Positions 32,201 through 61,327 of a DNA stretch of 64,000 bases are shown here, piece by piece; position 1 is the stretch's first letter; each line of letters begins with the position of its first letter. The notes under the pieces were generated by a model, which was not told the origin of the DNA, searched no databases, and worked only from the letters and a program-made list of their open reading frames with translations. This DNA is from Verrucomicrobiaceae bacterium (GTDB lineage Bacteria; Verrucomicrobiota; Verrucomicrobiia; Verrucomicrobiales; Akkermansiaceae). The translations under genes and the position numbers were made by a program. Where the stretch lies: the NCBI GenBank assembly GCA_027487435.1, contig JAIYDP010000106.1, positions 1 to 64,000 on the forward strand. The letters are read 5' to 3'.

Positions 32201-35200
32201 CTCACCATCAAGGCTGACGATTTGCCGCACACGACTTGAGTCGACGCGATCAAACGCGAGGGCATGGACACCAGGGAAGAGCATTGAGAGGTAAGGTTTG
32301 ACTGCTGATGGTGAAGCTGATTGCGAGACGACATTGAGGAGGTCACCATTGCTGAGGAAAAAGTATCTTGGAAACGTCAGACGCTTCGTGTCCAAGTACG
32401 TGGACAGCGACTTGTCGATATTTTCAAATTGCTCCCTCAGCGAAGGTAACACAACGTAGAGCCCGTCGGACCCACAACAAATGTCCAAGATCTTACGCGT
32501 TTGATACGCCTTCCGGACATTCTTGAGGTAATTCTTTTCAACCTTTGCAAATCGTTTCCCCTCAAGCGCTAATTGCCTGGAGCCGTCGATATCATCGAAG
32601 AGGCCCTTCAGCCGGACATACACAGTTTGAACTGCAAACCAGAGTTCAAGAGAAGCTTCAACTTCAGCAAGCCGTCCCACCCATTGCGCCAACTCCGCGA
32701 AAAAGGGTTGGGACTTCGTCACTTCCGCAAGCAACTGGCCCAGAGTGACTTGGGTGGACGCAAGCCGCTCGAGGATGTTGCTCACGTCACTGCCGCTGAG
32801 CAAAATGTTACCCCTGTTCTTGAAGTCGTGAAAGTTAAGAGTCTCTTCGCTCCACTCGGCTGCGATGCGAGCCAACTTGCGCTCGATAATCGCTTCCTTG
32901 GATGCAACGCTCGCAACGTCGTCAATCACAGAGGCAAACGCAGGGAGATCAAGATCCAGTAGATGTCCAAGCGTGAGCGACGAAATATCCTTTCCCTCTC
33001 CAACAGCTTGCATGCCGAGCACCATCAAATAGTGCCGCGATCGCATTGCCTTGTTGCCAAGCTTGCGGAGACATGGCACGGTCTCCGAGAGCGAACTCAC
33101 GAGCTCTGACAAGCTGCTGTACACCGAATGGTCAGATGCACTCTAGAGGAAGGTTAGTTAAGTGAAGGGAGCATCTCACTACCTTGGGAAGAGAGGCGAG
33201 GGCGAGCTCAGTGTCCAGAATAGCTTGGCATATCGCGTCAGCCCTTGACTGAAGAGCCGACATCGGGATGGTGCGAATACTCTGCGACATGTCGTATGTC
33301 TTCACATACAGCGTGAAAAGAGGTTCCAACACGCCAATCAACTTGGCGACACGAGCGAGATCAGGACTGCGGGTGTGGCCGAGGTTGACTAATTCTTCCC
33401 GATCGTTTAAAGTTCGCAGGCGGCCGGCTAGACCATCACACACAGTCTTGTGTCGTGACGCACGAGAAGCTGCTTCATTGATAGAAATCTCAGGTTCCAG
33501 AGGCCCAGACTGATCAAACTCGCGGACGAATCGTTTGATCTCAATCAGGAGAGAAGTTGAGTCGTTGCCAAGAATACGCTGCAGCTCCGGCTTGCGCTTC
33601 GCAATCGCTTCGTTTGTAGGCGGCACCGCGTTGAGCAACTTTGACCACATCGCCTGCATGTCCTCGACTGTTTCTTCCTCTTCTTTGGTCAAGCGCACTT
33701 GATATCGTGACAGCAAGTTCATGATATCTCTTACGGGCCAAAGCTTGGCTTCAAACTCGGCATCTATCCGCTTGATGTCGGCAAGCAGTCTGACCACTTC
33801 GTCAAGGTCGTTAAAGTCTATAATCGACTTGCTCAGTCGCTGAGTTGCAAATAAAACGAACTGCTGCAAAGTGGATAATTCCATCCTTGCTCGAGAAAGC
33901 AAAGCCCGCGAGAACAGGCTCTTCCATGCCGCCGCCTCAGCTCTGAGGGAGTTTTTGATTGGAAGCGTCTTGAGAGATATGCAACCAATGTTGTGCACCG
34001 GCGCTATGCCGAGAATCTCCTTCTCAACGTCAGTGTAATGTCTCAGAACCTCTGAGAAGTCATCCATGGATGGGTTGCGAGCAAGAAACAGGTCATACGC
34101 TCGGCTCTTGTCTGTCGCCCAGATGTGATCAAATCGGCGGAAGAGCTGCAAATGCTCTGTGACATTCTTCTTGACCTGCTCAATGCTGCCGGTGAGGAAG
34201 AGGACAACCTTCACGATTTCCTTGTCACCTGCCAGCCAAGTGAAGAAAGAAAAGTCTGAAGCCTCCCCGAGAGCGTCCACTCCGCCATGAGTTGGGTCTG
34301 CCCCTTTTGCCCACCAGTTGATGTCCTTTGTAGACTTGAGTACAAGCGACGCCACTTGATTCACTGCCTCCTGTATCTCCTCCAAACTCGGTGTCAGCGA
34401 CACGTTAGGAACAGAGAGCTCGACGTCGACTTCAAAGAAGGGATGCTCGACGAAGAGGAAGCCACCGCTCATGCGGGAACCAAGCCTCCGCTTCATAAGA
34501 AACAGAGTGTTCTTGACCGCCGTTCGCACCGCCACGTACGTGAGCTTGCCGTAATGCTCCCTCAGATGGAACAGTTCATTCTCGTCGACGGTGTTGTGTG
34601 GTGGAGGAAGACCGTCTCGGAACGTGACAAGAACAGCAACCAAGTCTGATAGTGCCCTTTCGATCTCAAGCGAGCGCTGCTCAATAATTCTTGTCCGATC
34701 CGACACGAACTCGACCTGCTTCGAGATGAATTGCTGCAGTGTCCACGTTTGATGGGCAGGGAACTGAATCAGAGCAACCTTTGCTATTTCTGTGAGGTTG
34801 CGCTGCACGCGATGCTCAATGATGTTGTACAGCGCATGGAAAAGGTCCGATAGTCGAGCAACTCCGGCGCGGATAGAAGACACATAGGCATCGATGTTCA
34901 TGGACTGCCAAGTGAGGGATTGAAGGCCCGGCTTGATGCGCTTCTCAACATCGACAATGTGAGCCTTGACAAGAGTCGCAAGGGACGGGTCCACCCGCTG
35001 CATGATTGTGTCAAATTCTCGCAGGGCGTGCTGAAGAATGCTGAAGTGGTGCTTGAACTTCTCCTCCTGCACGGCAATCGAAAGAGCATGCGGCGGCACC
35101 TCAAACCCCATGCGCTGAAGGCACCGGGTCTCCCTGATGAGCCTCATCACCTCAGGATCGAAATTTACAAACAGCCGGCCACCCTGCTCATTTAGTGCTC

Positions 35201-37467
35201 GCACGCGACGCGGTGTGCGTACCTGTGGATGGCGCACCAACAGCGTTGCCTGCAAGCCCGTACGCGCAACGTCAACGGTTCTTGTCCACGCAGCCAGCCA
35301 CATGTTTTCGAATTCGACCAAGGCACGGTTGATTCGATTGTACAGGCGAATGCTCTTGATGTACTCCTGCCATGTCAGCGTGCGTACAGGCGGACGAAGA
35401 CCTTGCTCTCGGCAAACGCGCTCTTCAAAGATTTGCACTTGCGCATGGGAATTTCGATTCGACGCATGAGCGTGCGAGCCCAGGCGATGTTAGACGCGAC
35501 GGGAGGGACGTTTCGGACGACTGGGGGGTTCTTCTTTTGTCGCTCGTAGAGGTCTTGGACGTCCTTCAGCTCGGAATGGAGGCGGTGGAAGAGGTTGTTG
35601 TAAATGTTGTGCACGTCCGACCGCATGACACTCTTCCGCACCACCTCTTCAAAGTTCTCAAACAATTCAAAAGCCTCCACGGCGGACGCGACCATCTTGA
35701 TGCTCTCTGAAAGTGACGTCACTACCACCGTCTCAAGCTCCGACACGTTGCTTTGAAATTCGACGAAGGACCGCTCAAACTCCCCTGTGGTCAAGTCAAG
35801 GGGGTCTGGACAATCTCCAATCAACCTCGCACTCGCGACTTTGAAGGCATGAGCGTACGTCTCAATGCTTTCAATCGAGAGCTTCACAAGACTTTCGAAC
35901 TGTTGAGTCGCTGTGAAATAGTCTCGAAGCTTCAACAATCTCCGCTCGAAAATGTCAAATCTCTGAACACTTGCAGCCTCAGCAACCTCCGACTGCGGCC
36001 GCGACTTGAACGCCGCCCGAAGTTTGTCCTACCCAAGTGTCAGTCACTTGTCAACTTGAGGACGAACTCTCAGCATGTAAAGCTGGCCAATAAACACGCT
36101 TTTGACCTTGCCAATCGTCTTGATGCGCTCGAGAGTCTCCGCAACGTCCTGGTGCCACACACCAACATCGCCATTCAGATCTCGCTTGCAATTCAAAATG
36201 GTCATGTTGGCAATCTTGAGGAACAACGCAGATATCCGGTCGGGGGCACTGTATAATTTTGCTACAGTGCAGAGCGTGAAGACCATTGACATCAAAGACG
36301 GGAGGGTGTCAATAATGGAGGACGGCGACCCTGAAAGAAGTGGCTGCATGCATTTCTCGAGAGCGGTCAGATACTTGAGATTGTCCTTCGCCTCGTTGAG
36401 CGCCTCCGTCAGCATTGTGTCCACCTGCTTCCAGCGCTTCAGATGCTTCGATTTGATGTTGTTCAACACTCCCAGAGCTGCCTTGCTCTCTTTCAGCTTC
36501 AGCTCTTCTACGATGCAATTCAGCTGAACGACTCGCTGCCTCCAAGCAGCCAACTCATCTGCGACAGACAAGTCGTCTACCGCACCGCCGTCTCGGACAG
36601 CTTCGCTCAGAGCGGACTCAATCACGGACATCCATTCAACGATCAACTCTGGACATATTAACCCAGTCAACGCGAAAGTGACATCAGCGCCCCCACAACC
36701 ACTTACCTTCGCAATGATCAGCAACCGCATGGTCTCCGCGACCCCCTCCCTTAAAATTGAGCCTCGGATCGGGTCGGCGCAAGATAACGCTGTTGCTTGG
36801 GGCTTCCGACGCATGCGTCAAAGACGTAGTCAATGCGCTTGCACAGGAGAGGAAGTCCCTAAAGCTGGCTCATCAATGACTCTTCACAGCGGAACAAACC
36901 TCTCCTCGAACTCGGAATCAGCGGGGGGGACAATTCGCTGCGAAAGAGAAGGAATGATCATGCCAAGGACATCGTTCATCGAATCTAATGCAGGAAAAGC
37001 AAGTTCGCCCCAGCTAATGAGCTCGTGGAAATTTAAGCTGTCGACTTCTCCGGCTGCAACGCGGATGAAATAAATGGCTGCGCCACGCACTTGAACAGAG
37101 TCTGCGTCTGCAGTGACTATCAACTTGACTGGCTCTGTCGATAATGATGATGGAGACTGAGATCTGTCGATGTCGAATTGATTACTCGACATTTCAAGAG
37201 ACATCGTCGGACTCTTCACGTCGTAGACCTATGAAAGTCAAAAAATGCAAGAGAGGCCATTACGGGCACATAGATGATTATCTTCGCAACGTTTCCGAGG
37301 AGAAAATCTTTAACTTTTTGTGCAGTTGATGTCGAGACCAGATGATCAAGGACGTCAGGAACCGGAACGTCCAAAACGGCTGCAGTAATTCCTGCTAAGG
37401 CCTTTACGGCAGAATCTGATGATAGTGACAGTGAGAGCTTCAGATCTCGAGTCGCATCAGCTTCCAT
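23293..37467 (-). CDS. Divergent dynein heavy chain with degenerate AAA1 site
   Basis: Twelve proposed exons give about 4590 residues: 37467-37270, 37228-36888, 36858-36845, 36789-36056, 36028-35402, 35366-33183, 33142-31788, 31749-24219, 24190-24077, 24037-23705, 23672-23512 and 23473-23293; frames close. The N-terminal tail and linker are recognisable (LELWFAVQTVYVRLKGLFDD; YLDTKRLTFPRYFFLSNGDL). AAA1 reads SGAASSGKAT with IFGGLSAAD in place of the Walker B FDEFNR. AAA2 has GPPCSGKST. AAA3 has GPPGVGKSA and IFVEDLN. AAA4 lacks a P-loop. The antiparallel stalk with its PPLVIKFVFDAML microtubule-binding entry is intact, and AAA5, AAA6 and the C-terminal domain follow. Dyneins are microtubule minus-end motors. 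This one is too divergent to place as axonemal, IFT or DNHD1-like. One 39-nt intron (24038-24076) is in frame and stop-free, so it is only probable. The exon-3 region (36790-36887) is the least certain. Confidence 0.88.
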
Positions 37468-40930: not shown

Positions 40931-41743
40931 ATGGCGCTACGAAGCCTTCGACAAAAGAAAGAACTCCGATTCAGACTTCAAGGTCAGCTCAACCAGACAA
41001 GGCTCTACGGAGGACGTGAGGAGGATCTTGTACCGTCCCATCAGACATTGCACCGACAAGAGCGGCACGCTGGCGTCGCTCTCCGAGTCCGACGACGGTC
41101 TGATCCCTCGGATGACACGCCGTCCTGAAAGAAGGCTGAAGACGGAGACTCGATCGTCGAGAAGGAGGTAGAGGTAGCGGTTATTGCATTCAAGACTGAT
41201 CTGCAGTCGTCAGGATGACAAGAACACAGAGACGTCAAATGAAATTCTTGACAGCGCCTCATCGGGAACCGACGTTGGGAAGTCTATGGTTATTCTGGGA
41301 GGACGCAATTCGAAGGGGTCTGAGAGCTTCAAAATCGATACAGACAGTGAGCGGCCTGCATGTTACTCAACAACTTGCGACATTCAACCTTTCCCAGGGA
41401 CATCCGGCTCGCGGACGACTATGACAACCTCGTTGCTGCCTTCGACAAATTTCGCCCCGACAATTGTTCCCTGTCGTCAGCCTGAGGATGTGCAGGGCGT
41501 CACCTTGACTGTCTTGTACGAGTAAGTTGTCGATGTGTGTCCTATCAGGACGCCCTTCGCATCAAACAAGAGTGTGTGAAACGTTGCGCCCCTCAAAGGG
41601 ATGTACGAGTCCGGCCGATACACGGCGAACTGAAGGAATTACTTGGAATCAGGGCAGCAGACTCTGCGGCCGAGGGCATCGACTCCCGTCGAAAACGGCA
41701 CTTTGCGCAACTTGAGCGTGGAGAACTGCGACTTGAACTTTAA
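40931..41743 (+). CDS. Multi-exon orphan protein
   Basis: Probable start MALRSLRQKKELRFRL at 40931. C-terminal exons are clearer: LADDYDNLVAAFDKFRPDN (about 41400-41460), then introns at about 41462-41491 and 41524-41550, then DALRIKQECVKRCAPQRD through LERGELRLEL to the TAA at 41741-41743. The exons between 41130 and 41400 are not resolved. The product is charged and helical, with no domain I recognise. It converges on the giant gene with a 13-bp gap. Confidence 0.45.
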
Positions 41744-41756
41744 CAACTCTGCAGGG

Positions 41757-44700
41757 TTAACAGAAAAAATGTCGAAACGGACCATCTTCGGCAATCTTGA
41801 CGAAGTCTTTGTCTTCGGATGCATTCTTTGGTGCGCGGGTTCCGTGAGGGGGAAAGTAGGTTTTGACAGGTGCATTTGACTTCGCCTCAAACGTAATCTC
41901 TGCAATGTCGATCCTTGCACTCGTCAGGACGTGGAGAAAGAGAGATTGCTACTGGCACATCCTCGCCGGCACGAAGTAGCCGTCGGCGTCAAAAGAGTCG
42001 CAGTCATATTTCCACAGCGCCAACGACCCGCCTGAATCAAGAGACACCAGGTCACTTGAATTTGGGATTCTGCACATAAATATGACAGGGTCCCTGCGTA
42101 AGTCAGAGGAAATGAGCAACAACCCACTTGTGGCCGATCATGTACTCAAGCTCGGGTACCTTACCCTTGCGCTCCACTTGCGGAGGGAGTCCAAAGATAC
42201 AAAGCTTCGTATCTTGAGTGTTCTGCTTAACGATTGCACCGCCACCCATTCCGAGAAGAAACGAGGGTTGCTTTCCACTGACGGTGAATGACGAGTGAAA
42301 CTCAAGCGAATATATCCTCGAGTCAGCTGCATTCGACACGTTGAGGACTGACACGGGCTCGGTCGTGGACACTGCCTTCTTGACGAAATAGCGGAGGGAC
42401 TTCGATGACGACTCAGCATCCAGGGGCTTCATCTTTGGGGGCGGGTTCCTCTCTACCACTCGCAGGATGGAAGGGTACGTGATTAACATCAAAACCTCGG
42501 GAGGAACAAAGTCGCCCTCTTTTGACATTACCTCAGCGCCGCGAGGATGGCAGAGAGTCCACATGCGGATGCATCCGGTCTCATCGAGAGTGATCAGATT
42601 GCTGCAATCCATAGCCCATCGAATGATAACGATTGAGGGGTCCTCAAGAAGGCCCTGCCGCAGAATCACAGGGGGCATGAAGCTAAGGTCAAGAACCCAC
42701 AGAGACCCATTGTGGGGAGCAACGGCGAGAAATCGTCCGTTCGGCGAAACAACAACTGACCGAAGGGCCATGCCACTCTTTGCGATCCGGACGCGAGTTG
42801 GAGTGAGAACAAACGATCTGAAATAAGCCTCTTCTTCTGACAAGGCCTCTGGGGCAACGGAGACAGACTTCGTGTCAACAACGCGAAGCACCGGGATTCC
42901 CCCAAAAGACTTCTCCGACGAACCCTCTTGTGTGCGGCTGTGCCAGGACACAAGGGTCTTCTCGACAAGCTCTTTCATGGGAGCAATACTACTGGACGAC
43001 GAGTCCGAGGCAGGAAGCGCTTCGAGAAGCTGCTCCATCACAGTTTCAGTCAATTTGGCCGTGTCGTCTCCATCCATGGCAAGCTTCTTCATTTCTGGGT
43101 CATTCAGAACTGTCTGAACAACCTCATTGGCCATGCCAACAACCATGTCCGCTGACCCTCCAGCGACATATGACTGCATCGCATCGCTCTCAACGATCTT
43201 TGTGACAACTTTCTGGACAAGTCCATCCGTTGGAACGACACTGTCCAACGAAGCAAGGGTCTTCAAAGTCTCATCCTGAATCAATTTTTCTGCGACAAGC
43301 TTTGCAAGACCCGAAGCAACTTGTGTGGCTCCAGTATTCATCAAGTTTTCGACTTTAGAGTCCTTCAGAGCTGCATCAACTGCTTTTCTGATGACGGTCT
43401 CTGCCATGGCTGCACTTAACGCCTGAGTAATGCCCTCAATCTCTGTGTCATTCTGAACAGCTGCCAAAACTGTCTCGACAGACTCAAGCGAATCTTCTGG
43501 CAGCGACTTGAACTTGTCGTTGATCAGCTTCGCAAGTGTGACGATTTGATCTTTTGGCAAATTTTCGAGACTCTGCTTCGTATCAGCTGGAGCTACTGAG
43601 TTGATCAGAGCCACTGCAGATGCCTCGCTCAATCGATCTCTCATCGAAGGGTCGGCGTGACAAACTCGAACAACCTTTCCAACCAGCTGCTCCAGAACTC
43701 GAGCGCTTCCCCCTCGAGCATGCTCTCGCAGGCCGGGGTTAGCGGGAATCATCTCAGAGAGCTGCTTTTTCACCGACTCTTGCACGTCCTTTTTGACAGC
43801 ATCCATGGCGCCTGTAAGTGCCCCATGTCCTGGGTTCGTCGGAGCAGTCGCATCTCGAAATGCCTGCTCGATGAAGTCGTGGTCTTCTTCCTCATGGCCC
43901 CGCTGCTCCTGAGGGTTTGACGCCACTGGCCTCCGCAGTATCTTAAATATTGCCTCCTGCTTGAGGACGTCTTTAGCGAAAACCATTGCAAGCTTGTCCA
44001 AATTATTGGCCGGCTCAAAGGCCGTCAGCTTGATGTCGTCGCGCTTTAGAATCAACTCCACTATTTTGTTTGCGAGTTCAACGATGATGGGATCATCGGC
44101 AGAGGGCTCACACGACGGGGAATTGTCCAGCACAATAGCAGCAGCATTGTCGAGCGAAGTCGGGGCTTTTTGCGATGCAACTCTTTTCCACAAATTGAAA
44201 GTTCCGATGCAATTGGAGAGAACTTCCCGCACGACTTTGCGACTCAATTCCCTCAACCCCGTCCTCAGCAAAACAACTGCCCCGTCTGTTGCAATGACAC
44301 CGTCCACGCAATTGAGAGACAGCTCGGCTGCAACAAGAGGTGCGCATTCCAAGACATTCTTCTTGATCTCTTGAGATTGCAATATCCGCTGAGTCGCTTG
44401 CTGCTTCAAAAGCGTCTGAATGGCTGCCATCGCTCGAACATGCAAATTAGACATGATTTGCTGGTTCTGAACCATCCAGCGCACGATTGCTGACAACAGA
44501 CTGCGCCGAGAAGATTCGGAATCGGACCCCTTGTATTTTGCTGAGAAAAACTTCTCGACAAGCTCGAACACGAAGCCCTCAGACACAACGTCGCGACCGC
44601 CCTGCTGCTGGATTGCAAACACGGAAGTCTCGTCTGAGAGAATTGCGTGGGTCATCTCTTTCAAGAAATCGGCAACTTTGAGGTTTGCCGCAACTTTTAG

Positions 44701-47700
44701 CTCAACTTCCAGTCGAGTGTCACGCGAACACTTTTCCCGCACACTATTCGCTATCCACATGGACTTCCGGTCAGCAAAGAGATTCATCTTTCGCCTCATT
44801 GCAAAATCTTTGGAGAGCGCTGCGAAAGCAATGTCGGTTGAAGGAAGAAGCGATGCATCCTCATTGTCTTCGATGTCGACAGCAACGTGACTCACGCATA
44901 TGCGAGTAATCGCGTGAAATATGCTCACTCGCCTATGCAAACGTGATTCTACCTCAGGCGCGTACAAAACGACGAGTTTGTCGAGAGAAGCATCAACAGA
45001 GGCCTGGCTGTGAAGTGAGTCTACAAAGGACATGACGTCGAGCTTCTCATGAACATATACGGAGCAGCAAGTGAGCAGTTCGCGTAGAATCAATACTGGT
45101 ACACAAGGAATCATATCCGAGGGCTTCAAAGTCGTTGACATCAGCTTCAGCAGGGACTGCTCCACAGCCTCAGAAGAATCCTGTCGTGTGACCAACCGAA
45201 GTGCGTTGTGCTTCAGGAAAAGTGAAGAAGAGACGCTCACAAAATGACTCAACGATCGGGAGAGCACCTCAGAGGATTCCTCGGGCCATGAGGACCTCAA
45301 AAGCTCTTGCTCAGCTTTGCTCGAGATGACCAGGGAGAGCGCAGACTCTCCCTCGATGGGATGAGGCCCGCTTGAGAGTAAGCTGGTTTTAATGTCATCT
45401 GGCGCCGCGTGTTGAATAAATCCTCCGAAATCAACAATCAAGGTGCAGAGGGAGTGCTCGGTGTCCAAATCAACAAACTGTTCCAGACTCGGAGCCAACT
45501 TCATGCAGACTCTCTGAACGAGCTCCATCCTCAGCCAACCCATGAAGTCGACCTGTCTCAAGAACGTAGCGCTGGGATTGTCAACGGTGCGTTTTAATCT
45601 AGAGTGAGGCATCATTTCTAACTTTGCAACCTCGAGCACATTCGACACAACATCGGCAACGTTCTTTTCAAAAATATTATCAGAATTCGCCTTTCCTCCG
45701 AATTCGGACTTTGCAAGCATGAACTTCTTTCTTGGATCAACCTCTGTATTCAGCTTCTTTGCAAGTGCAAGCATCGTTTCTGCTCGAGAGCGCGCCACTG
45801 TCGCACCACATTTGATGGATTCAGTTGCCAGGCATGAAGAAACGGGACTGATAGTCAATGCAGACAAGCGGTCCATCCTCTCGAGGAAATCGAACAAAGC
45901 TGCGATGTCCTCAACGCAATCTGGTGGTGACAATGAAGCAGCAATGACATCATTGAGCAGAAACAAGTTGCCAGTGGTGAGGGAATCCAGAGAATTGACG
46001 GACTTGATAATTCTCTTGTTCAGAATCCTATCTAGAAGGGCAGAGAGGGCACCCTTATTGATTCTGTCGAATGTATTCAACTGCTCAACACCAAAACAAT
46101 ACTCTGCGAACTTTAAAAACTTCTCCGTCGTCAGCATCGCTCTCAGCTTCTTGTTTAGAACGGAGTCCTTAAACGCAACAAAACCAAGGCCATGGTCGAC
46201 AACAAACACCAAAAAACTTGTCATTGCAGCGCCAACAAACTCCACTTGGCTTCTCCGAGGGAGCGCAAGGGACGTCGGGTCCAACAGCTTTCGTTTGAGC
46301 TTTTCAGAAGCATCCACCTGGATCCTCTCCCGAATATCAGCGGCGACTAGCTGAATGAAAGGATGAAGTAGCCAGGAGTCCATCGAGATGGGGGTCCTTG
46401 GGCTGCAAAGGGATAGCACAAGCCGCAACAACGATGTCTGGGCGGTGCTTTCACTTGCTTGACCCGAAATAAATGTGCTCAGTTGTGTTCCGACATGTTT
46501 CAAACTCGAATGTGACGCCCATTCATCAGCAATGGAGGTAGCGATTTCTAGATCCGCAATAGAGTTGGCCACCTCATCGCCCATCAGTGCGGCGAAGCGG
46601 GGCAACGAAAAGTTGGCAATGTCGTGAGGGAGTCTTGCAATGCCATTGTTTCGGATGTCGGCAATTTCTTGGAGATCCCACATTGACTGATACCAAACAA
46701 GACCCAATGATCTCTTCAAAGAAGCACCCACAGAGAAAACAATGGACTCACTGTCAGGAACGGGCCCTGTTGACGGCTCAAACGTAGGATGAGCTACAGC
46801 AAATGACCCCGCAACTGAAGCCAACACGTCGAACAACTTCGATGTAGTTGGATCCTTCTGAAGTGCACTCAAGGCAACAAGGGAAGGAATGCCGTGATTC
46901 GCATGCGGTTTTAGCGCACACTGGACTTGGGCCAAAAACGCGCAAGACCCGAGGAGTCGCTCGGACGCTACAAATTCAACGCTTCTCTCTGGAGATGCTT
47001 GCATCAACGTGGTGAGGCAAGATTCAAAGAGGGAGCAGCTGACATCTTGCAACAAATTATGTGACGCCTCCACAACGTTCCACCGCTCAAGAACATCATC
47101 GATGGTTGTGCTGGAATCAGGGACAAAGTAGCCTGACTCACAGGCGCTCTCCAAAACAGCAAGGACGAACTTCTGGTGCCCAGTAGATCCCGTCCCAGAT
47201 CGATGCAGCACGTCCGCAGCCAATTTCTTTGACGAATCGACCTCAAGTCGATTCTTGAGTTCGACAATGCTGCTGGTGCTGCTTGTAGAGGACAAAGATT
47301 TCTGAAGTTCAGAGGCAATCGAAACAGCTTCTTCCTGAAGAAGCCGCTGAAACTTTCCGGCACACACAATCCTCATTACTCTAACTGCAGTTCTGACCTT
47401 TCGAGCAGCTTTGCCGATGCATTCCTTCGCATCCTTGCCAAGTTTCTGAAATGCATGCTTGACTGTATCGACGACAGAGCGAGTCACAGCTGATTTTGGA
47501 TAGGCATCCCCAAACTTTTGAGCCAGTAGACGGGCGGTTGACAGCACGCACTGCGCGGAAAAGTCAACCAATTCTTCCAGAGGTTGGCACAACTCCCACC
47601 AATCTGCCTGAAGAGCTTTCTGGCAGCTTGCAAGTGTTGTGTTTGAGAGCGCAGCGACCTCCTTCAGGTGAAGCGCATGGAATGCGTCGACATCTTCAAT

Positions 47701-50700
47701 AGAAAATGCCAGGACAAACCAAACTACATCAATGACATCAAATTCACGGATTCGCCGCAGCGATGCTGCGCATGACGTCTGAACGTTTGCTTCGAGTGCA
47801 AGAGCGCATTCAATTGACAGGAAGTAGGATGCAGACGCCTTGAGAGAGTCCGCAGCGGGGGTCGACAAGTCCTTCAAAGAAGTCAGGGTCGCAACAGCGT
47901 CTGGTGGCATTGTCACGGAGCTCACAATTCTTTCTGAGTATTGCTTCAGAACAGCAGGTGACACATTAAGACCAGCTTGCATCTGCTCAGTAAGATGATG
48001 AACGTCGGCAAGTTGACGAATATGAAGCTTCTCGACAAATGCGCATCGAGCCAAGTTTCCAAGTATTTGATGGACAAAAGGCTGACTTCCAGAACCCTCG
48101 GATGAACTGGTTCGCGCTTCTTTTCTTAGCAGGTACGTTAAGTAGCCCCATACCAGAGAGCTTCCCAACGCTTTCTCCAGGGAAAGCTTCCTCACTGTTG
48201 ACAGAACTTCACGCTCTGTCAACGGTTTGGTTGAAAATCGCTGTTTGGAAATGCAATCCAACACCAGGGACGACAATTTTGCTGCATTTTCGTCTTCCAT
48301 TGGAAGAACCTGTCCAAACAATGTCTCTGCCACAGATCTCATATCTATAATACTCTTTTGTGGCTGCTTTGCTCTACGAGCCTCAAGTAACAGGCCTCCA
48401 AACAATATCTTCGATAAGAAAGGTGGCGCTAACGTCGACATCGTCTTCAGCTGCGCATCACACTGGGAAGCTGATTGTTTGTCGAAGCTACGTGTTGCAA
48501 GGTCTTCAAGCACACCAACAAAGCAGCACGACGCATATTGAGAACTCGTATCTGCTGATTTCTGAGCGGAAACCCAGGCAACGCAAACTGCAACCAAATC
48601 CAAGTGGCTCCAAGAATGGAAACTGAGTGCTCTTACATGTTGGTCAACAAGGCTAATGAGGGAAGAGCACTCCGGTACAGCATGACATCGACCCACTAAA
48701 TCGATGGGAGAGCGAACTTGAACGGTGTTCAAGTCGACCACGTATTCTTGAAGAGCGTTTTCGATTTCCTTCTTAAGATCGTCGAGGAAGTTCCTTGCGC
48801 CGACGTCAACTTTGCAGCCTTCGATAAGGAAGGACTGGAGGAGAGAAACTACGAATTGATCCCCCAGCAAACACAGGTCGTTTTCAAGGTGAGATAGCCT
48901 CTGCATCAGATGGACGCTCGCTGGCACAGGAGACATGTCGGTGAACGACATAGAGGAATCGATGTCGGCTATCCTCAAGGTAATTTCCCGTAAACAAGGG
49001 TCCCCAGCTCCGTTCAGCAATCCTGATGACTCGAGAACTCGATCTGCCAGGTAGTTATATACACCAGCCCCCAGTCCGATCCAGGACCTAGCTTTCAAAG
49101 GAATTTTCATTTGCAGTATGTCCTTCGTGGTACTTGCACGACAATAATCGCTCAATCGATGGGGGAGCCTCTTCATCACGACATCAGCAAGTAAACAATT
49201 TGCGCGACTTCGACGCCAACCCAACTTGAAATTCAAATAAGTAAACATATCCATGGCAATCGCGTCAGACGGAGTTGAACTGGAGATCAAGTTTTCCAAA
49301 GATGCACAATACTTACTCTTGGCATCAGCTACTTGAAGCAAGAACTGTTGCTGAAACGCTGAGCATATCTTGAAAGAACAAGTCTGCCGAAATGCAGAGA
49401 CCACAAGGTTCCGCAAACCGGCTTGGCCAACAGGCGATTCAATCAAATCGCGAAGCCTAGAGCATCTCCAAAGGTATGTCACGTCAGAGAGCATAGATGA
49501 AGTGAATGTCTCTGCAAAACTGCTACAAACCTCGATGACCTCAATAGGAAATGGATCATTGCCAGAGATCTTATTGATAACTTTGCCCAGAGGTACAATA
49601 AAATCAATGCTGACGAGTGACTGCTTCAGCAAATTGTTTTCAATCACAATGGACCTAATCTCCTTTCGAATTCGGTCGGTCAAGTTCTCAAACGACACAG
49701 AGCCATTCAGCCGATCAAGAATAGCAAAGGATATGTAGCAAACGACAGCAGAAGGAGAAAGACCCACATTCAATACTGGCAACGATTTGGATAGTAATGA
49801 CATCATCTCCACTGACAACAGAGCAACCGTAACTTCAACAACTTTTTCAAACAAGTAAACCATCCTCCAGTCATCTTCCAGCTGCCATGGAGTACGCTGA
49901 TTGTAGTACATTGCGCAAACAACGTCAAATGCGTTCTCGGAGAGAAGCTTCGTTAAGCAAGACCGATGAACATGGCGCAGCAACTTGGAACAAGCTCTGG
50001 CTTTTTGCTCACCCAAGTCGCTGCGACGAGATATGAACGCCCGTAACGGCTCTACACTCTCCTTGAACAGACGAGAAAACACCTTACTATCCCACGCCAA
50101 GCGTCCAGCCGAAGCTGCTTGAACAACGGAAGAAAATTGCGGTGCGGAATGAACAAAGTCATGGACAAATTTGACATAGTCAGAGCAAATCTGATCGCAT
50201 TCGGCGGCAGCCGCAGCTCTGAATTCAGGAGTATCAACGGCATGAGACGAAGCCTCGATGAGAGCATGGATAGAGAGGAAGTCATTCCCGAGTTTGGAAG
50301 AATCAAAGTTCAACCGGAGAAGGTCGCCCAAGGTAGCAGAATCTGGTAGTCCACGCAAGAGAAAGCTCAGCGACTCCTTCAGTTGAGAGAGCGACTCATG
50401 GCTCTGCAACCTATCGAAGGATGCGTCTCTGACAAACAATCGCTCGCAACATGCAGCGATTTGGTCCTCTGAACTTCCTTCGTGGACATACCATTGGGCA
50501 CTACCTAGAGCGACAATCCTTCCAAACAACGCCGCTGTCTCCAGAGGAATAATCGAATTGTTCTCCTCTACATCGGCAGAACCTCCAATGGCCTGAACAT
50601 CAGAGAGCACTGAGTCCAAGATGTGAGATCGGAAGGACATTAGCGGTGGCAACAATACCCAGGGGAGCTCGAAGTAATTGACATAGCGCTCGACCGACGG

Positions 50701-53700
50701 CACTGCAGCCATGGTATGCCGAAGCAAAAAACTGTCGAAATCAGCGTCGGCCCCAATCATGGAGGTCAACTCAGCGGCAACATCTTGCACGTACTCGCTG
50801 TCGGATATGTCAAGAGTTTTTCTCAAACTGCTATCATCTGCGAGCGCCTCTGAGACTTCATGAGCAACAGCCTGGATTTCAGATTGCGACGGGTTCCGCT
50901 TGCTTGCTTCAGACAATAGTGCCCGCGATTTCGACATAGGGTCCAGGCAGAGCCCAGTCGCCTTGATCACAATCTCTCGAACAAATGCAGAGGAGCAAGA
51001 CTGTGTTCGAGTCAAGAAAGCTGGGAGAACAAGACAGTCCTCCAGCTGCTGAGCGACCTCCAAATCATGCAAAAGCGCGCCGATCTTCATCAGTTCTTCT
51101 TCAATGCTCGGAGACTGCTCAGTTTTTAGTCGCTGCAAGTGGAGGATGGGATCAGATTCTCTGAAGAACCGACGTCGTGCAAGTACCTTTCCCAATGCAG
51201 TTGACGCTTCCTGAATCATTGCCGCAACTAAATTGCTTACTTTTGAGCCCCTACGGTCGATCATGTGCCCAAAGATGAAATCCACATCGCACTCAACCTG
51301 TTGGGAGCTGCTCGTCTGAAGAATGTCTAGAATGCAGCATTCGGCACGAAGTCTGACAATCGAGGGGTTTGCATGACGACCTGCTGACAGCAATGGGGAC
51401 CGCACAGCCTCATTGAGAGCAGCAACAGACAGATTTTCAGCGACGCGAGTTGTAACGTCCCTCAAAACTGCCTTTGATGTCCATTCAGAGACCATGCGAT
51501 CGTACACCTTCTCGGCAGGAAATTGCAGCATATCATCCTGAGAGGAGAGGGACAAAGTAACAGCTTCGTCCGTGAGAATCACACAGCAGATTTCGCGCAC
51601 TAATGCCTGCACTAACGTGGCTCGGCGCAGCGTCCTCAGCACCAAATCCTCTGCCAAGGACTGCATATCCGCGTCAATTGAGGCGGCTGTGAGCCGTTGA
51701 AGGGCAGAGGACAAGCTCGCTCTGAGCGCGAAGTCATAGTACATGGACGGCGTCGGACTTGAGGCTCCTTGGAGAAGTAGCAACAGCGAATCGCTTTGAA
51801 GCTCATTCACAGCGGCATCTACGTCCTTTCTGACAGCGTCCTTCAGGTGGTCCAAACTTTCGAGAGCCATCTCACGAATAGATGCTCCAAATTGCGAAGA
51901 GAAGAGCAGTGACGATACTCTCTTTTCAATGAGGCAGGATTTGACAATTTTGAGAGTTGCGAAAACTGACGGCAGAGATGATTTCTGGGTGACAGCCAAC
52001 TCCAGCCTCCGCATTAGGGGCATCAGCGCTGCGTCTGCGGGGAGGTCTGGTCGCAGTAGCTGGCTTGCAGTTTTCTCTTCCACAATCAGCTCTTCGATGA
52101 AGACAGCCGTTTGGTCAATGATCGCCTTGCTGTCGTTGCTGACATCAAAAGTATCAACAGCTTCCTTGAATGTCGCAGCTAGAGCTTCTTGAATCGCTCT
52201 CTTGTTCTTTCTCAATTCAGCTAGCCTCAACGAAGATCCCCGAAGCTTTAAAAACACTCGAATCACAGTCTTTGCAAGGGCCTCTTGCGCTTCAATACTT
52301 GATATGGGGCCATCATCTGCAAAAAGCCGCGAATCCTGGAGTGCTCGCAAACGCGTTCCCTCCCTCAACGAAACGGCCAACTCAGCGAGCACAAAACTTC
52401 TCCACGGCTCACCCTGGAGCGCGTCGAGAGGGAGGCCATAATTGAGAAGCCCACATCTCATGATGTAAACGAGCTTGTGGGAAGAGAATACCTCCTGCAA
52501 ACTCGCCTTTGCGTCCAAGACGATTGAGCGCGCGAACTCCTCTGCGGGTAGGGACAACATAGTCGTAAGCACCTTGTCTGCCCGAATTTCCCTGAGACAA
52601 TCTGGGACGGTGGAGCCCTTCCATCGCTCCCTTATGTACGAAAACGATGCCAATATAGCACCGCTTGCTTTCTGAAGGACGCGCCGATGTTTTCTTGGAC
52701 TGGAGCAAATGGTTATCAACAGGAACGTGAAGACATTTCTAATACAAAGGCGGCCAACCTCGGCAGCCGCGTCGCGAAGTGCAGGCTCAAGATTTGTCCT
52801 TTCGGCGAGGGCGGACACCGTGGCTTGAGGGGAGAGACCGGTGCGACAATTGCGCAACAACAGCTGGATATGAAGATACGCCAGCGCTGACAAGGGTCCG
52901 AACTCTGACTTCACGAATGCATTGAGGAGATCTTGTGACGAACATGACGCCCTGATGCCCTTCGATAAGGCAAATCCAACAACTTCCAGGCCGACACAAG
53001 TGAGAGATGTGTCGTCGAAGTTGATTGTTAGAGAGACAGCGCCCTCCTGAAGAACGCGCGACACGGAGTTATTCAACTTCGACGCCAATTTGTGGATGAT
53101 AGGGAAAGCAAGGGAGCTGAGGATGGGGCTGTCGAAGGGACGCGCGGTCGATGCAGTCCAGTCACTATCAAAAGACAAGCAGCTGAGGAAAAAGCGCTCA
53201 AGTTCATCATCTTTCGCAGAGCAGCTCTTCGTGATCAAAGCAATGATGGGATTCAAAAGATCGCTGTGAGCCAGGATTGACGAATTTAATTGCACCCCGT
53301 CCACCGACACGGCGTCATCGACGATGCTGTCTAAAATGTTAGAAACCTCCATGCTCCTCATCTGCAAGCCCTTCGCCCTATCTCTGTCGATGCGCTGGCC
53401 CAAGTTGCGAAGCCTCATTTCATCAGATGCAATAGGCTTCAGTGCCTCAGACAGAACAGAACAAATCAATGTTTCAATTGCCTTATCCAAAACTCCATCG
53501 ACTTCAGGATCCGTAAACGACCTTTCCATGCGGCTGAGAAGCTGGCCTTTCTTCAAAAAGGTACCAAGAGCACGAGCTTCTTGGCAAAATGCCTCAGCTG
53601 CAAGCAGGAGCTGCAAGGATTGAAAATTCTTGAGAAAGACGAAGGAGACGTCTATTCTCTTCGTCGAAGCCAGCTCCACCCTCTCAACATCAGAGACTGT

Positions 53701-56700
53701 TTTTTCAAACAAGTCTTTGAAACCAGGAAGCGCAACGAGTCGAGACAGAGAGGATAGGACAAACGAGAAGTCATCGTCAGTTTGAAAAACCGAAGGGCAC
53801 TGCATGGAGGCCGCCACAGAGCGGAGTACATCGGAAGTTACTGCATGAACCAAGCCGCTTGGCTCGGTGACAGAGAATTTGACTTTCAATGAGTGCATAA
53901 GGCAGAACAGAAGGGTGGACGCGGCTACAATACAGTCATGATCAGAGAAATGGAAAAGCTCGCCACCTTCCAATCCAAGTCGATCAAGGCACTCACAGAT
54001 GATGTCCGCCCTCAGAGCGTCTTTGGCAACAAACAAAGCAGCCGTAGCCTGAATCCTCCTGTACATGGACTTGACAGTCACTTGAATGACTGATGCAGTC
54101 CTGCTCCTCCCTGATGAGATGATCTGTTGAAGAACCGACGAATCGGCGACTGACCGAAAAATGCAATCTCGTAAAATCGGAGAGAGCCACGACGCGGCTC
54201 CCATGATTGCTTGACGCTGCCGCCGCCTCACCTCGATGACTTCTAACAGGCGCTGGACAACTAGCTCGCTTAAAGTTGAGATCCTATCAGTCACGAGAAC
54301 GGACACACGTTGCTGCAACGACTTGTCTGAAATAACATGCCCCCTTCGAATGTCAACAGCCCTGTAACCGTGCTTGGCGATTAATTTCTTCAGGACGTCA
54401 CTCCCTGGACATGCCAACCGAGACAAACAAAACGAATCGATCTCGTCTTGTGATGAACCATGCTTTACAACAAAACAAGCCAGAAGCAGGAAAAACATGG
54501 TTCGATCAGCACTTGTAGAAAACCAGCCAAAGTGAATTGAGCCATCGGACTGATCAAACAAGTTCCGTACTTTGTCCAAACATTTTGACATCATCGCGTC
54601 ATCAGATACGCTCCCATCGTTCAGCAGCTCCCCATGTATCGCCAATAACACCCTCAGGTGCTGCCTTGCAAAAAATGAGACCTTCTCGAGCCCTTCAAAC
54701 ACATCTCGAGCAGCAGCTTGCAACACATCAGATTGTACTTGAGCTATCACCCCATCACTAAGGAGCGCTCCCAGGGCGACGTCATTGAGAAGCCCTTGTC
54801 GAATAGTGTCTGACGCATTGTTAGCATTCCATCTGAACTTAGCCTCCCTCAAGACTCGCTTGGCTGCTCGATCCGCCAACTTAGGGTTGTTTCTGTACGT
54901 GATGTCGACATCCAATCCTCGCTTTTCGGCGTCTTCGTGAACAATCTTGTCAACAACGCCATCCACAACATCCATAACAGCGGAGGTGAAAAACCCATCC
55001 TTCTGCTTCTTCGAGGCAGTCGAGAGGATCTCTTTGGAGGCTTCTTTTAAAGCAGCAATCGTCGATGAAGGCAGAGATTTCGATGCCGTGGATGAAATAT
55101 ACTTTTCCCGCTGTTTCATGATCCAACAGTACGTATTCAAATAGAGCGCAATCGCAGTCGAGGAACCGCTCGAGATCGTGCGGGCTTTCGCAGCTTTGGC
55201 ACTGGCAATTATCTCGGGCGTCTTGACGACGTTGAACTCTTGTAAACCCTTGACTTGTCGCTCTTGGGGCAACAGTGCAAAGGAGCTTTTGAGAATAATG
55301 GAGAAGATTTCTTCCACAAACTGGACAAATAGAGATTCCGCGAACGACGACAAGTACGACCGAACAGACAAATTGGAACTGAGCTTTCTGGCCCCGATCT
55401 GGAGAATATCTTGCTGCAGCGACTCAACAAATGCATTGAAGAACTTGCCAAGGGCGGAGCTGGGGCCATCAAGTACAGTTTCAACAAGCCGCACGATGGT
55501 AGATTCCCTCGATGAGTTTTCATTCGCAACGTCTGGGGAGAAGAGAGTTTGAAACGAAGTTTGAGAAACCAACACATTCACTACTTCAACGGCCGAGCTA
55601 ACTAAGAGGGTACGAGTGGAGCTTGATGCCACAAACCAGTCTCGCTCGATCGGGATAAAGGAGTCCACGTTGTGCGAAAAGAAGGTGGCCAATGGAGGCG
55701 ATACCCCCTCGATAAAACATTCACAATGCTCCAACACACTTGATGCTTGAATCACTGACTCGATCATGACGCGCCTGCCCAACCCGTACGAGAAGTGCTT
55801 TGTTGCAGCAACAGCAGAGGGGTCTATCTTGAAAGCAGCTCCTGACTCTGAAGCCCATCTGTCCAACGACTCTTCAACAAACTCAACTACAGATGATTCG
55901 CCTGCATCGCCACACGCAATATCGACAAGATTGGAGAACAGGAGGATTGAGTCCTGGCCGCTGGAAAGTGAAATCAGGATGGAACGAACAAGAGGGAAAT
56001 TCGTGTGCAGGATACCGTAGAGAAACTGCATCAATTGACCGTTGGGATCAATCTTGATGGAATCCAATCGATGCAGTTGCGGAGATTCCAAGTCACGCGC
56101 GGTGTCATGGGGCTCATCCTCAAGAGCCAAAATGGAAGTGCCCAAATCAGACACAAGACGCACAGGCTGCCCGAGGGAGTTGAACTTCTGTCCGTCATCT
56201 GACTCATACTGTACGTCAACAAACATGATCGCAATAACGTCGACTGCAAACCTTGAAGCTATGGCGAACAGCTTGCTCTCGCCAGTGCCTTGCGTTGGCA
56301 AATGCTTCCCTATGACAGCGTAGAGGTAAGCTACGAGGTACGGTGACACTTGATCAGTCGAAGAAGTGTTGAAAGCAATTCTTGACGAGGTTGCATTCAG
56401 AACTTCTCGGGAGAGGATGATGTTGTCGAAGGCTCGCAGAGAGTTGTGGACTGACTCGAGGGGAAATTTGGAGGTGGATGAGAACTTCGTGAGGATGTCG
56501 TCAATGCGAACACTCATCGAGGCCCAGAGGGCGTCTGCAGCAACTTCAATATCTCCGCAGAGGTCATAGCACACTTCAGACCTTGGCTCCAGACCTGCAA
56601 AAGCATTTGGACTGATATCCCGCTCGAAAGAAATCAACAGAGAGGATATCGCACTACTCGAGTCCTCCAACGCCGCGCTCACGGACCGAACATAGAGCAG

Positions 56701-58140
56701 CAACGAACGGCAAAAATCTGAGTTCGGATCAACGGAGGGGACAGACTGGAAGTCAGAGCTGGCAACGACGCGGATGAAGAAAAGCCCACCGAACCATTGC
56801 GTCGCACTCTGGAGGAGATTTGTTGCTGAATCGCTCTTCATCAAAGCGTCAAGAAAAGCTTCCATCAAACTTCGTTGCCCTTTCCGCTTATGGACCAGGC
56901 GAACCTGCCGGAAAAGCTCAAAGCTAACTGAACACAGAGACTTGAGAATCGCCGTCATAGCCGTGAAGTCGATAGTAAGGCCCACGTGCTGTAGATGTGC
57001 TTGCAGCTGAGAGGAGACCCGCATTGCGAAGATGGCGTGGATGGAATAAAGCAGAGGGGCCTCTTGGTCAGATGCGACCTCAATGAGCTTGCACAAGCAT
57101 CCGAGGACATACTTGACACAGGCCATGGCAAAGCGCACGGACGTCTCTTGAACAATGTGGTGCCTTGAGATGCGCTTGACGGAGAGGGCGATGAAGAAAA
57201 GGCAGCGCGCGATGCCAAAAAGATCCTCCAAGTCGCTGGAGGCGGGTTCGTCGTCGATGAGCAGCTCTCCAGATACTTTTTTGCGAGAGGGTCTCCCAGA
57301 CTGAATTTGATAGCCTCCTTGCGAAGAGCCTGAGAGGAGTAATCGAGAACGAGGCGACAGGCAGAAGCGACAGAAGCGGAGTGAAGGAAGCATCCGAACA
57401 GCGTGCGCATGGCGGCTTCTGTGCGAGGTAGACCGCAAAAGAGATCCCGCCATATTGGACGCAACTTGCTTCACAAAAGCAACGGAGATTCCCAACTTCT
57501 GGAGCCACTCCGCCCTCACAGCCTCGTCATCAACAAGACGCCGACGGAACGGTAGGGCCTCAGCAACTGCTCGTAGATTGGGTTTCCGAGGAATAGGCTG
57601 GCCGTAGGGACTCTTTGCGATATTGCTCTTCAGGCGCAGAGAAGACTGCGACTTTTTGAATCCATTGTCCCGCTCCACTTCCGTCGGTCGGTCGGTCTGG
57701 AAACCGCTTCCTGCTTCAACCGCCTCTGGAAGTCGCCGTGAAATTCTTGCAGACAATACCTCGATATTCTCAGGAGGAGACATGTCCGACATGTTTTGAA
57801 GACGAGGCACTCGCGGAGCAGCGACAACTTTCCGACTGCGAGACGTCTCGTCGGAGCCCGCTGGAGGACCCATGGACCCCTGAGTTACTGACACATCTTT
57901 TTCGTCAGCATCCCCAGTCTCCCATGCATTTCTGAGCTTGCTACGAGAATCTCCACGGCTTCGAATCGTTCTTGTGACATGCGGGCCGTGCTGAGCCGAT
58001 ATCTCCGTTGGATCAGCAGAGAACTGAAACTCGATCATATCCCCTTCACTCTGAGCACTAGACTTGACCTTTAGAAAGGATGGACGCCTCTTGCGTACTT
58101 CCTTTTTCGCGGGATGCATTGAGAAACTGCTGCTGGTCAA
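41757..58140 (-). CDS. Giant helical protein with C-terminal WD repeats (5436 residues), orphan
   Basis: Exon 1 (58140-42128) is one uninterrupted open frame of 16013 nt. Two small exons, 42093-41959 and 41919-41757, follow introns of 34 and 39 nt and complete the frame. The first 220 residues are basic and Ser/Arg-rich. Residues about 220-5060 are almost entirely alpha-helical, lacking enzymatic motifs and giving the impression of a long solenoid. Short related helical units are clearest at about residues 4905-5040. From about residue 5085, WD/beta-propeller sequence appears: VVVSPNGRFLAVAPHNGSLW, NLITLDETGCIRMWTL, SSDLVSLDSGGSLALWKYD. The architecture suggests a scaffold, for example at cilium, centrosome or membranes, but the role is unknown. 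Being nearly intron-free contrasts with its neighbours. Confidence 0.9.
42990..43430 (-). repeat. Tandem 26-32-residue helical units in the giant protein
   Basis: Successive translated units share the pattern h-x-x-h-V-x-x-h-L-x-D-x-x-h-x-x-L: AETVIRKAVDAALKDSKVEN, GLAKLVAEKLIQDETLKTL, GLVQKVVTKIVESDAMQSYV, MVVGMANEVVQTVLNDPEMK, KLTETVMEQLLEAL. DNA-level identity is low, so this is an old or structurally constrained repeat. Confidence 0.5.
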
Positions 58141-58360
58141 TCAACATCACTCATCACAAAGACTCATTGTCAAGAACAGAATTAAACACGTCAAGGAGGA
58201 GAAAGAAAGAAAGGTAACAAAGTGCATCGGGAATGACAGAGAAACAAAATCTATTAGAAAGAGCACAAAGGAATGGAATGAGTTTGAAGTACCTATTTGT
58301 TAATTTTTAAATCTGCTCATTCGCTTCTGCACTGCTTCCAGAAGAATTCTAGAAATTGCA
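58141..58360. promoter_or_regulatory. Divergent promoter, giant gene / DnaJ gene
   Basis: This 220-bp, A-rich gap has TGTTAAT at 58299-58305, 56 bp before the DnaJ ATG. No element is obvious near the giant gene's ATG. Confidence 0.35.
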
Positions 58361-60061
58361 ATGTCGAGCAGACTGTTAGTGTTCATAGTCGTTCTGCTGG
58401 CAGGATGTTATTGTGCGTCCAGGTCCTTCTATGATGTCCTTGGCGTTGGAAAGACTGCTTCACAAGAAGAGATCAAGAAGGCATATCGAAAGCTTGCACT
58501 TAAGTGGCATCCTGTAGCTCGCTCCCCCTCCCCCCCTCCCTCCCCCCCCCTCCCCCCGCCTCGCCCTCATCCTCTCTTTCTCTCTTCTTCTCTCTGTGTA
58601 GTAATGAATGAGGACAAAAACCCGCAGAAGAAAGAAGAGGCGCAGAAAAAGTTCACGGAGATCAGCGAAGCATACCAAGTATTTCCATTGGTTTCCATCT
58701 TTTGACATTGGAGGTCCTCTCAGACGAAGAAAAGCGGAAAGAGTACGATTCTGGTGGCCCCAGTAAAGACAGCTTCGGTGGAGGAGAGTCGTCGACTTCG
58801 TTTAAGTTCACCCAAGCCGATTTCAGGTTCCAGGACCCTTTTGAAGTTCGCTTCGATTTCAATTCGTCTCATTTGTTGAGTTCTTCAACTCCTTCTTTGG
58901 AGACAATGCTCATCATTTTGGTCAAGATCATTCGGCAGAGCACGGATTTGACAACCATGGCGGCTTTGCTCACAGTTACGCAAGCGCGTCCTCGGGAGGA
59001 ATGCACTTTGGCCAGGGGCCTCGAGGGCCTAGATCACCAAAGAGGAGAATCAAATTGTCGCCGAATGTGGACATGATCAAGGAAGTGTCCGAGCTGAAGA
59101 GATTGACAGTCACGAGTAAGTGGATTGTCCTTGGGGCTGTCGACAACGCTCTCATCAACAACGTCTCGCGGGACCTTCGCGACGTGTTCCGTGTTGCCGT
59201 CTTGGATTGTGAGAAGGATCCTCAACTTTGCAGAGTTTCTAACAAGCGTTTTCATTTTGACTCCATAGGAAGGCCCGTCCGTGAGCGTTTTCATCGACGG
59301 GGACGGTCCAACGAGAGTTGAGCGTACATTTTTGCTGCCAATGACGTTTGACATCGTAGCGTCTGCCAACTGGAAGCAAATAGTCCGCTCTGCGATTGAT
59401 TTGCTTCCTCTCCGTGTGAAACTCCTGAGCTCCAACAATTTCATCGACTTTGCGTCAGCTCGAACTCACAAGGTCATATCAGTCTCGAAGGTTCCATCTC
59501 TGGCTATCAAGATTTTAGCGAATCGATTCCCAAACATCGTCGCCTCAGGAATTTCCTGTCCTAATTGTGTAGAGCTTCGCCGCGATATCCCAGGAGATCT
59601 GGAGAGACGTCGGCCCTCAGTATGGCTTCGACAAGCCCCCTGATGCCAATTCTGTCCTGGTGACTTCGGGTGACGACGTGGACCAATTTACCTTGTTGTC
59701 AGGAGCTTCGCTTGCGGCCTTGGAGACTCATGTTACAACCAAGGCAATCCGATGGGTTGATGGGTCGCTTGGGAAAGTTGACTCCGCTGTGATGCTGAAG
59801 CAGCGCTGCTCCGCACCACATCTCAAGTTTTGTTTGCTTGCGTTTTTCAAACCCAGCGTCTCCGGCGCCGTGAGAAAGGCGCGGCTACGGGTTCTATCAG
59901 CGCTGAGTTCTGAGAGTAGATTCACAAGAATTCGTTTCTTGGAGGCCTCCTTCCGAGCGCCGACATGTTTGAATATTAGCAACTCGGCGGAGGGAGCTGT
60001 CGTCGCTTACTTTGCCAAGAAGAATCGGTGCTGTGCCAACGAAAGCGTTCCTGACAAATGA
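58361..60061 (+). CDS. Secreted/ER DnaJ protein with thioredoxin-like region
   Basis: Exons 58361-58513, 58613-58678, 58714-58845, 58881-59234, 59269-59538 and 59573-60061 give 487 residues. A signal peptide ([16 protein letters not shown]) precedes a full J domain: [20 protein letters not shown], the HPD motif rebuilt across the first intron (WHP|DKNP), and [18 protein letters not shown] Gly/Phe/His-rich linker follows, then two stretches with thioredoxin-fold character ([29 protein letters not shown]). The layout recalls ER J-proteins such as ERdj5 or DNAJC16, which stimulate BiP/Hsp70 ATPase. The thioredoxin CxxC sites are not evident. The C-terminus is uncertain, since two 33-nt introns could extend it past the TGA at 60059 to about 60200. 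Intron 1 (99 nt) has long C runs. Confidence 0.85.
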
Positions 60062-61327
60062 GGTTCTCGATTCTACAAGGGATTGTTTCCAAAGAGGCAG
60101 TCTCGACATTTTTGGCAAGTCGATTTCCTTGACTCTCTCTCAAGCGTTCAGGATGAATCCATGCAGGGAAGTCGGCTATTGAAGTCTTGGAGTGTGTAGT
60201 TGCTGTTCGATCCCAATCGAATGTGGCGACTGACGTGATCTACGTTGGGCTCAAGGAGTCCTGACCCCGCAGCGGACTGTGCCTCTTGTATTCGCATCGT
60301 AAAGAACCCCACCAACCGCTTTGTCTTTTGAAAGTAGCACTTCATCAGAGGGTCGGAGAAGGAAGGGAGTCCGAGCCAGCATGCTCATCCACACGGGGGG
60401 TGGGATGGGAGGTGTGGCAGCGACAACAACAAGTAGACAGGGAAGGCAGGAGGGAGGGGCCATGGGGGTTTCGGCGGAGTAGTGGGTGGGGAAGGATCCG
60501 CACAGTGATGCCTTTGGTCGAAGACGAGGAGCGGTAGTGTGTGAATGGTTGTGTGGGTTTTGGGCTACTGGGGAAGCTTAGATCTGCTTGGATACAACTT
60601 CAGGGCTACAGGGGCACGGGATCTACGACAGGGAGTTTGAACATTGAGGACAACGCGTGTCCGAACGTCCAGGAGGGGGCCTACGTGCTCGCCGTTTGAG
60701 TCGGGGGACGACGAAGACGGGTGAGGCGCTGAGTCACATGCGCACACGCGAGGTCGAGGGGCCAGGCTGCCGGCTCGGCTCCGCTCTCAGTACACGAGAC
60801 TATCGCACACGTCGTCCTTGGACAAGCGAGGGGGTTGCGGGGAATCATGGGAGGCGCTTCAGCGAGCGCTTCAGCTGCCACGAGTGTTTATTGCACGCGG
60901 AGACGGCATGGCGACGTCAATGCGGATGGGCTGCGGGAGCGTTTAGCCTTTGGAGATATGCTTGTTGATGAGAGCCCTCCCCAAGCAGCAAATGAGGTTC
61001 CATTGAAGTGGGGGGTTTGCCAAAAGGAAGAGCATGTCGACCAGCACCGCTGCACCCAAAGGATTTCCCGCAGCTGGGTGAGGGAGCAGAAGATCGTCAC
61101 GCCGAGGGCATCGAACGCGTGGGCGGCGATTCAGCAGAGAGGGATCGGCGCAGCGAGGGTGCTCAGCGGAGCAACACTTTGACTTTCCGGATCACGCTCC
61201 AACTTCAAACATTTGCAAGAGGAGTTGGTGGTGCAGCGATTCGCCTCGATGGCTGCGCTGACTCTACTGTCGACACTATTGTTTAATAGCAGCTCTTCCG
61301 TAGTGAAACAAATGTACAGATGGAAAC
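60062..61327. other. GC-rich stretch without a firm gene
   Basis: Several open frames exist on both strands, for example GAAVLVDMLFLLANPP on the complement near 61020 and LLVVVAATPPIPPPVW near 60430. None shows a recognised motif or a convincing chain of short introns. It may hold the 3' end of the DnaJ gene and the 3' UTR of the protease gene, or a small undetected gene. Confidence 0.35.

Follow-up and report, generated by a model that had tools for sequence, protein, structure and literature searches.

A giant, predominantly helical protein encoded almost entirely by one 16-kb exon on a probably eukaryotic contig in a bacterial genome bin

Proteins in which a long helical region is followed by a WD-type end are known from several systems. 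In the BEACH-domain giants (LYST, neurobeachin) a long helical body precedes C-terminal WD repeats, and in Vps15/PIK3R4 and Raptor helical repeats are followed by a C-terminal WD propeller. The giant protein described here has a layout like that of the BEACH giants, but it shares no sequence similarity with them and a Pfam scan finds in it neither a BEACH nor a PH-BEACH domain. The same scan finds neither the N-terminal protein kinase domain of Vps15/PIK3R4 nor the conserved caspase-like N-terminal domain of Raptor, and the protein is about four times longer than either of the two. Because these marker domains are absent, we do not place it in the BEACH, Vps15 or Raptor families. By analogy, it may nevertheless work like these scaffolds, as a platform docked by its propeller end.

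The gene lies in a 64,000-nt stretch of DNA that was analysed as a whole (the window) and that corresponds to bases 1-64000 of contig C266 (69,906 bases). The bin that holds this contig comprises 9.39 Mb in 506 contigs, compared with genomes of 2.9-4.4 Mb for its genus mates, and includes a bacterial 16S gene (on C486). Because the window encodes a dynein heavy chain, protein kinases and an aspartyl protease, carries a tRNA-Ala with anticodon AGC and contains introns of the spliceosomal type, we infer that C266 is eukaryotic DNA that was binned with a bacterium. The axonemal dynein suggests that the source eukaryote is a flagellate. A conserved 18S pattern had no match across the bin, no light-harvesting protein was found in it, and dynein used as bait brought up no further eukaryotic contigs. 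The case of C266 shows that eukaryotic genes may go unseen within bacterial genome bins. The contamination value of this bin, 0.61 as reported, gives no sign of eukaryotic contigs.

The giant open frame is a genuine gene. On the minus strand, 5,345 codons are open from 58140 to 42103, with the first ATG at 58119, and at the local base composition an open length of this size has a probability of approximately 10^-108 of arising by chance. A codon model learned from the nearby genes for dynein, alcohol dehydrogenase and kinases gives the long frame a positive coding score in 11/11 bins of 1.5 kb, whereas none of the other five frames scores in this way. Counted from the first codon of the frame, the stretch up to the first splice donor is exactly 16,013 nt, the very length given in the preliminary description, and it is coding throughout. 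Intron-like motifs are rarer than chance on the sense strand of the giant exon (6 observed vs 12.2 expected), which makes hidden in-frame introns unlikely; introns of this kind inside the 16-kb exon were considered as candidates and rejected. The features discussed below are:

40937-58119, minus strand: whole giant-protein gene, ATG to stop, with 8 predicted exons and 5,647 residues (hand-built splice model and coding score)
42128-58119, minus strand: exon 1, 15,992 nt from the ATG, with the basic N-terminus, the helical body and the first part of the WD-like tail (open frame, coding score, chance of the open frame, depleted intron-like motifs)
42866-57219, minus strand: helical body, approximately residues 301-5085, no recognised domain (composition, periodicity, low-confidence AlphaFold helices)
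40937-42865, minus strand: strand-rich, WD-propeller-like C-terminus, approximately 560 residues, exons 1-8 (weak WD40 matches, strand pattern)
41201-42127, minus strand: predicted cluster of seven introns, 33-39 nt each (GT-AG borders, branch-like motifs, restored frame)
42127-42094, minus strand: predicted intron 1
41958-41920, minus strand: predicted intron 2
41782-41749, minus strand: predicted intron 3
41662-41630, minus strand: predicted intron 4
41503-41471, minus strand: predicted intron 5
41388-41356, minus strand: predicted intron 6
41233-41201, minus strand: predicted intron 7

The 3' end is a splice model built from the sequence, in which introns were positioned by hand using GT-AG borders, branch-like CTGAC/TTAAC motifs and restoration of the frame. 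It comprises seven introns, each 33-39 nt long, with seven short exons after exon 1 ending at a stop at 40937, and would yield a product of 5,647 residues. The preliminary description had allowed only two tiny introns at this end and a product of 5436 residues, but in our model the stop at 41757 falls inside intron 3 and five more exons follow it. Over the whole tail the spliced frame has a coding score of +0.127 bits per codon vs -0.302 and -0.312, and over the part past the earlier end at 41757 it scores +0.09 vs -0.39 and -0.235. Every unspliced frame through the tail contains several stops. Very short introns (approximately 33-39 nt) are seen both in 41201-42127 and in a DnaJ-like gene near 58360-60500, in many cases with CTGAC shortly ahead of the 3' AG, and many of the bin's contigs have more strict short-intron motifs than chance predicts.

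The first 200-300 residues or so of the protein are basic, with more proline and glycine. From there to approximately residue 5085 the body has a composition typical of soluble helical proteins, with a hydropathy close to zero, a helical periodicity and little proline. Because of this periodicity and hydropathy, and because its hydrophobic stretches number only three, all marginal, we take the body to be soluble rather than a membrane protein or a long coiled coil. AlphaFold, run without an alignment on two pieces, models the body as helices and the tail as strands, at a mean pLDDT of 42 and 41. Of the earlier characterization of the product as nearly all helix, a mostly helical character holds, with limited confidence. 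Also borne out, for the helical body, is the statement that no recognised domain precedes the C-terminus: profiles of Pfam, NCBIfam and PHROGs gave nothing significant, nor did PDB sequences, a Walker A motif was absent from the body, and a Pfam scan that covered the long exon in full (E ≤ 1) found no enzyme domain. With regard to a HEAT/ARM-type alpha-solenoid, helical periodicity is seen, self-comparison by BLASTP or hhalign detected no significant internal or tandem repeats, and the models are of low confidence. Neither of the two models had a Foldseek match at E ≤ 0.001; the top matches (albumin, 14-3-3, chemoreceptor and BAR-domain proteins) were discarded as noise.

In the last 560 residues or so the helical signal is lost and strand periodicity is gained, starting inside the giant exon. 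WD40 profile matches here are weak (WDHD1 at 8.1e-4, IFT140 at 1.5e-3), all below the curated cut-offs, and extend over one or two blades; PDB WD proteins, CFAP52 among them, match at E 0.12 or worse. Regarding a closed WD40 propeller, these sub-threshold matches are joined by strands in a low-confidence model. Of the C-terminal WD repeats reported previously, a strand-rich and WD-like character therefore stands with limited confidence, but the similarity is weak and reaches no curated cut-off.

No relative of the giant protein was found in the viral_contigs or genome_contigs collections, by tblastn in phages, among genus, family and order mates, or as a paralogue in its own genome. Across 384 genomes of the class there was one weak match, in the WD region (E 5.4e-4), which we dismissed as a generic WD match. 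The label of orphan thus survives in the sense of no relative among the collections searched, and because these are viral and prokaryotic with few eukaryotes, the absence says little about other eukaryotes. Nor did any known giant scaffold match it over its full length, a weak check given the few eukaryotes covered. A literature search on giant or intronless protist genes returned nothing on point.

In size, the gene is indeed out of line with its surroundings, as first described. Its giant exon is the longest found, with open frames of other giants reaching at most 3,868 codons. The companion claim, that its intron density is also out of line with the window, largely fails. The adjoining dynein has an unbroken ORF of 2,520 codons in a 7.56-kb open exon, frames of 2,175-3,868 codons occur in the bin, and the giant gene itself has seven introns in our model. 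Among sixty sampled stretches of the bin, one dynein frame extends over at least 3,140 codons, a VPS13-like frame (on C70) over 2,640, one of the PA14/filamin type over 2,175 and one of TIG repeats over at least 1,623. A dynein-domain search of the bin gave open frames of 3,868, 3,668, 3,537, 3,140 and 2,537 codons, together with a dynein domain in three pieces on C214 and one broken by a stop on C130. Like the giant gene, the VPS13-like gene on C70, the dynein of the window and those on C430, C355, C167 and C269 have very long open exons, although many tiny introns interrupt other genes of the genome; unlike it, they belong to known families and have shorter open frames. Since dyneins and a VPS13-like gene have long frames while other dyneins are interrupted, long exons are a recurring, gene-by-gene property. 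Co-binning, which is suggestive rather than conclusive, points to one eukaryote as the source of the compared contigs. Intron loss through reverse transcripts does not usually leave introns at the 3' end, and the introns of the giant gene are confined to that end.

We consider the chances slightly better than even that this is one gene of an uncultured, flagellated eukaryote encoding a lineage-specific giant scaffold, with a helical-repeat body and a WD-type docking end. The product of approximately 5,650 residues would be soluble, with a short, basic and probably disordered N-terminus, approximately 4,800 residues of divergent helices that most likely form an alpha-solenoid, and a strand-rich C-terminus of the WD-propeller type. 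The solenoid would hold partners along its length, most likely as a long binding platform, and the propeller end would dock the protein onto some complex or structure. The great length of the exon would reflect a habit of this genome of keeping some very long genes nearly free of introns, with no special mechanism. It is distinctly doubtful that this lineage-specific protein, nearly all of it from one 16-kb exon, has an undescribed helical fold and represents a giant cellular scaffold of a new kind. If it does found a new scaffold family, it would rank among the larger single-protein platforms in protist cell biology and be a target for structure work.

The main rival to a lineage-specific scaffold places the protein in a known giant family, such as one of ciliary or vesicle-traffic scaffolds, from which it would have diverged beyond the reach of the tools used while still doing the job of that family; we regard this as possible but on the unlikely side. 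Distant relatives in eukaryotes escape searches with a single sequence, and the eukaryotic sequences searched were few. Ciliary scaffolds are also expected because the organism has axonemal dyneins, and the weak WD matches include the ciliary proteins IFT140 and CFAP52. However, many unrelated proteins match about equally weakly, so the ciliary matches carry no special weight, and nothing in Pfam, NCBIfam or PDB matches the body significantly.

Two further explanations concern the gene itself. A falsely long product, made of two or more genes or of an assembly join, is hard to reconcile with a body and a start of the WD-like tail that share one unbroken frame, with a coding score that is positive all along and with synonymous codon use that agrees between the two halves of the frame (r = 0.81); we consider it very improbable. 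We give just as little credence to a special origin of the giant exon, as an intron-free gene, taken up recently or derived from a virus, that was fused to an intron-bearing WD gene. Such a fusion would fit the finding of introns at the 3' end only, and codon use is only moderately correlated with that of the dynein exon (r = 0.51), which is higher in GC. Yet viral contigs and phages contain no match, the WD-like region begins within the giant exon rather than after it, GC and GC3 are similar to those of the neighbouring alcohol dehydrogenase gene, and the dyneins, which are clearly eukaryotic, have comparably long exons.

The uneven intron content of giant genes may matter more than any single scaffold. 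With some giant genes near intron-free and others from one and the same family interrupted, in a single genome whose tiny introns measure 33-39 nt, gene-by-gene loss or gain of introns becomes testable. Among the dynein genes on C430, C355, C167, C269, C214 and C130, intron content is strongly unequal, some frames running on for over 3,000 codons and others being broken up; the dynein match on C355 is weak (1.1e-17) and lies within the 3,668-codon frame. The dynein heavy chain of the window (24156-36814, minus strand) has a divergent motor, with AAA_6 at 7e-35 vs 5.5e-155 for the dynein of C269 (L057). On other contigs of the bin, long frames carry PA14/filamin repeats (L044, 9739-16263) and at least 14 TIG repeats (L050, 2-4870). 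At 909-2765 on the plus strand of the window, a beta-helix region and a protein kinase domain share one open frame.
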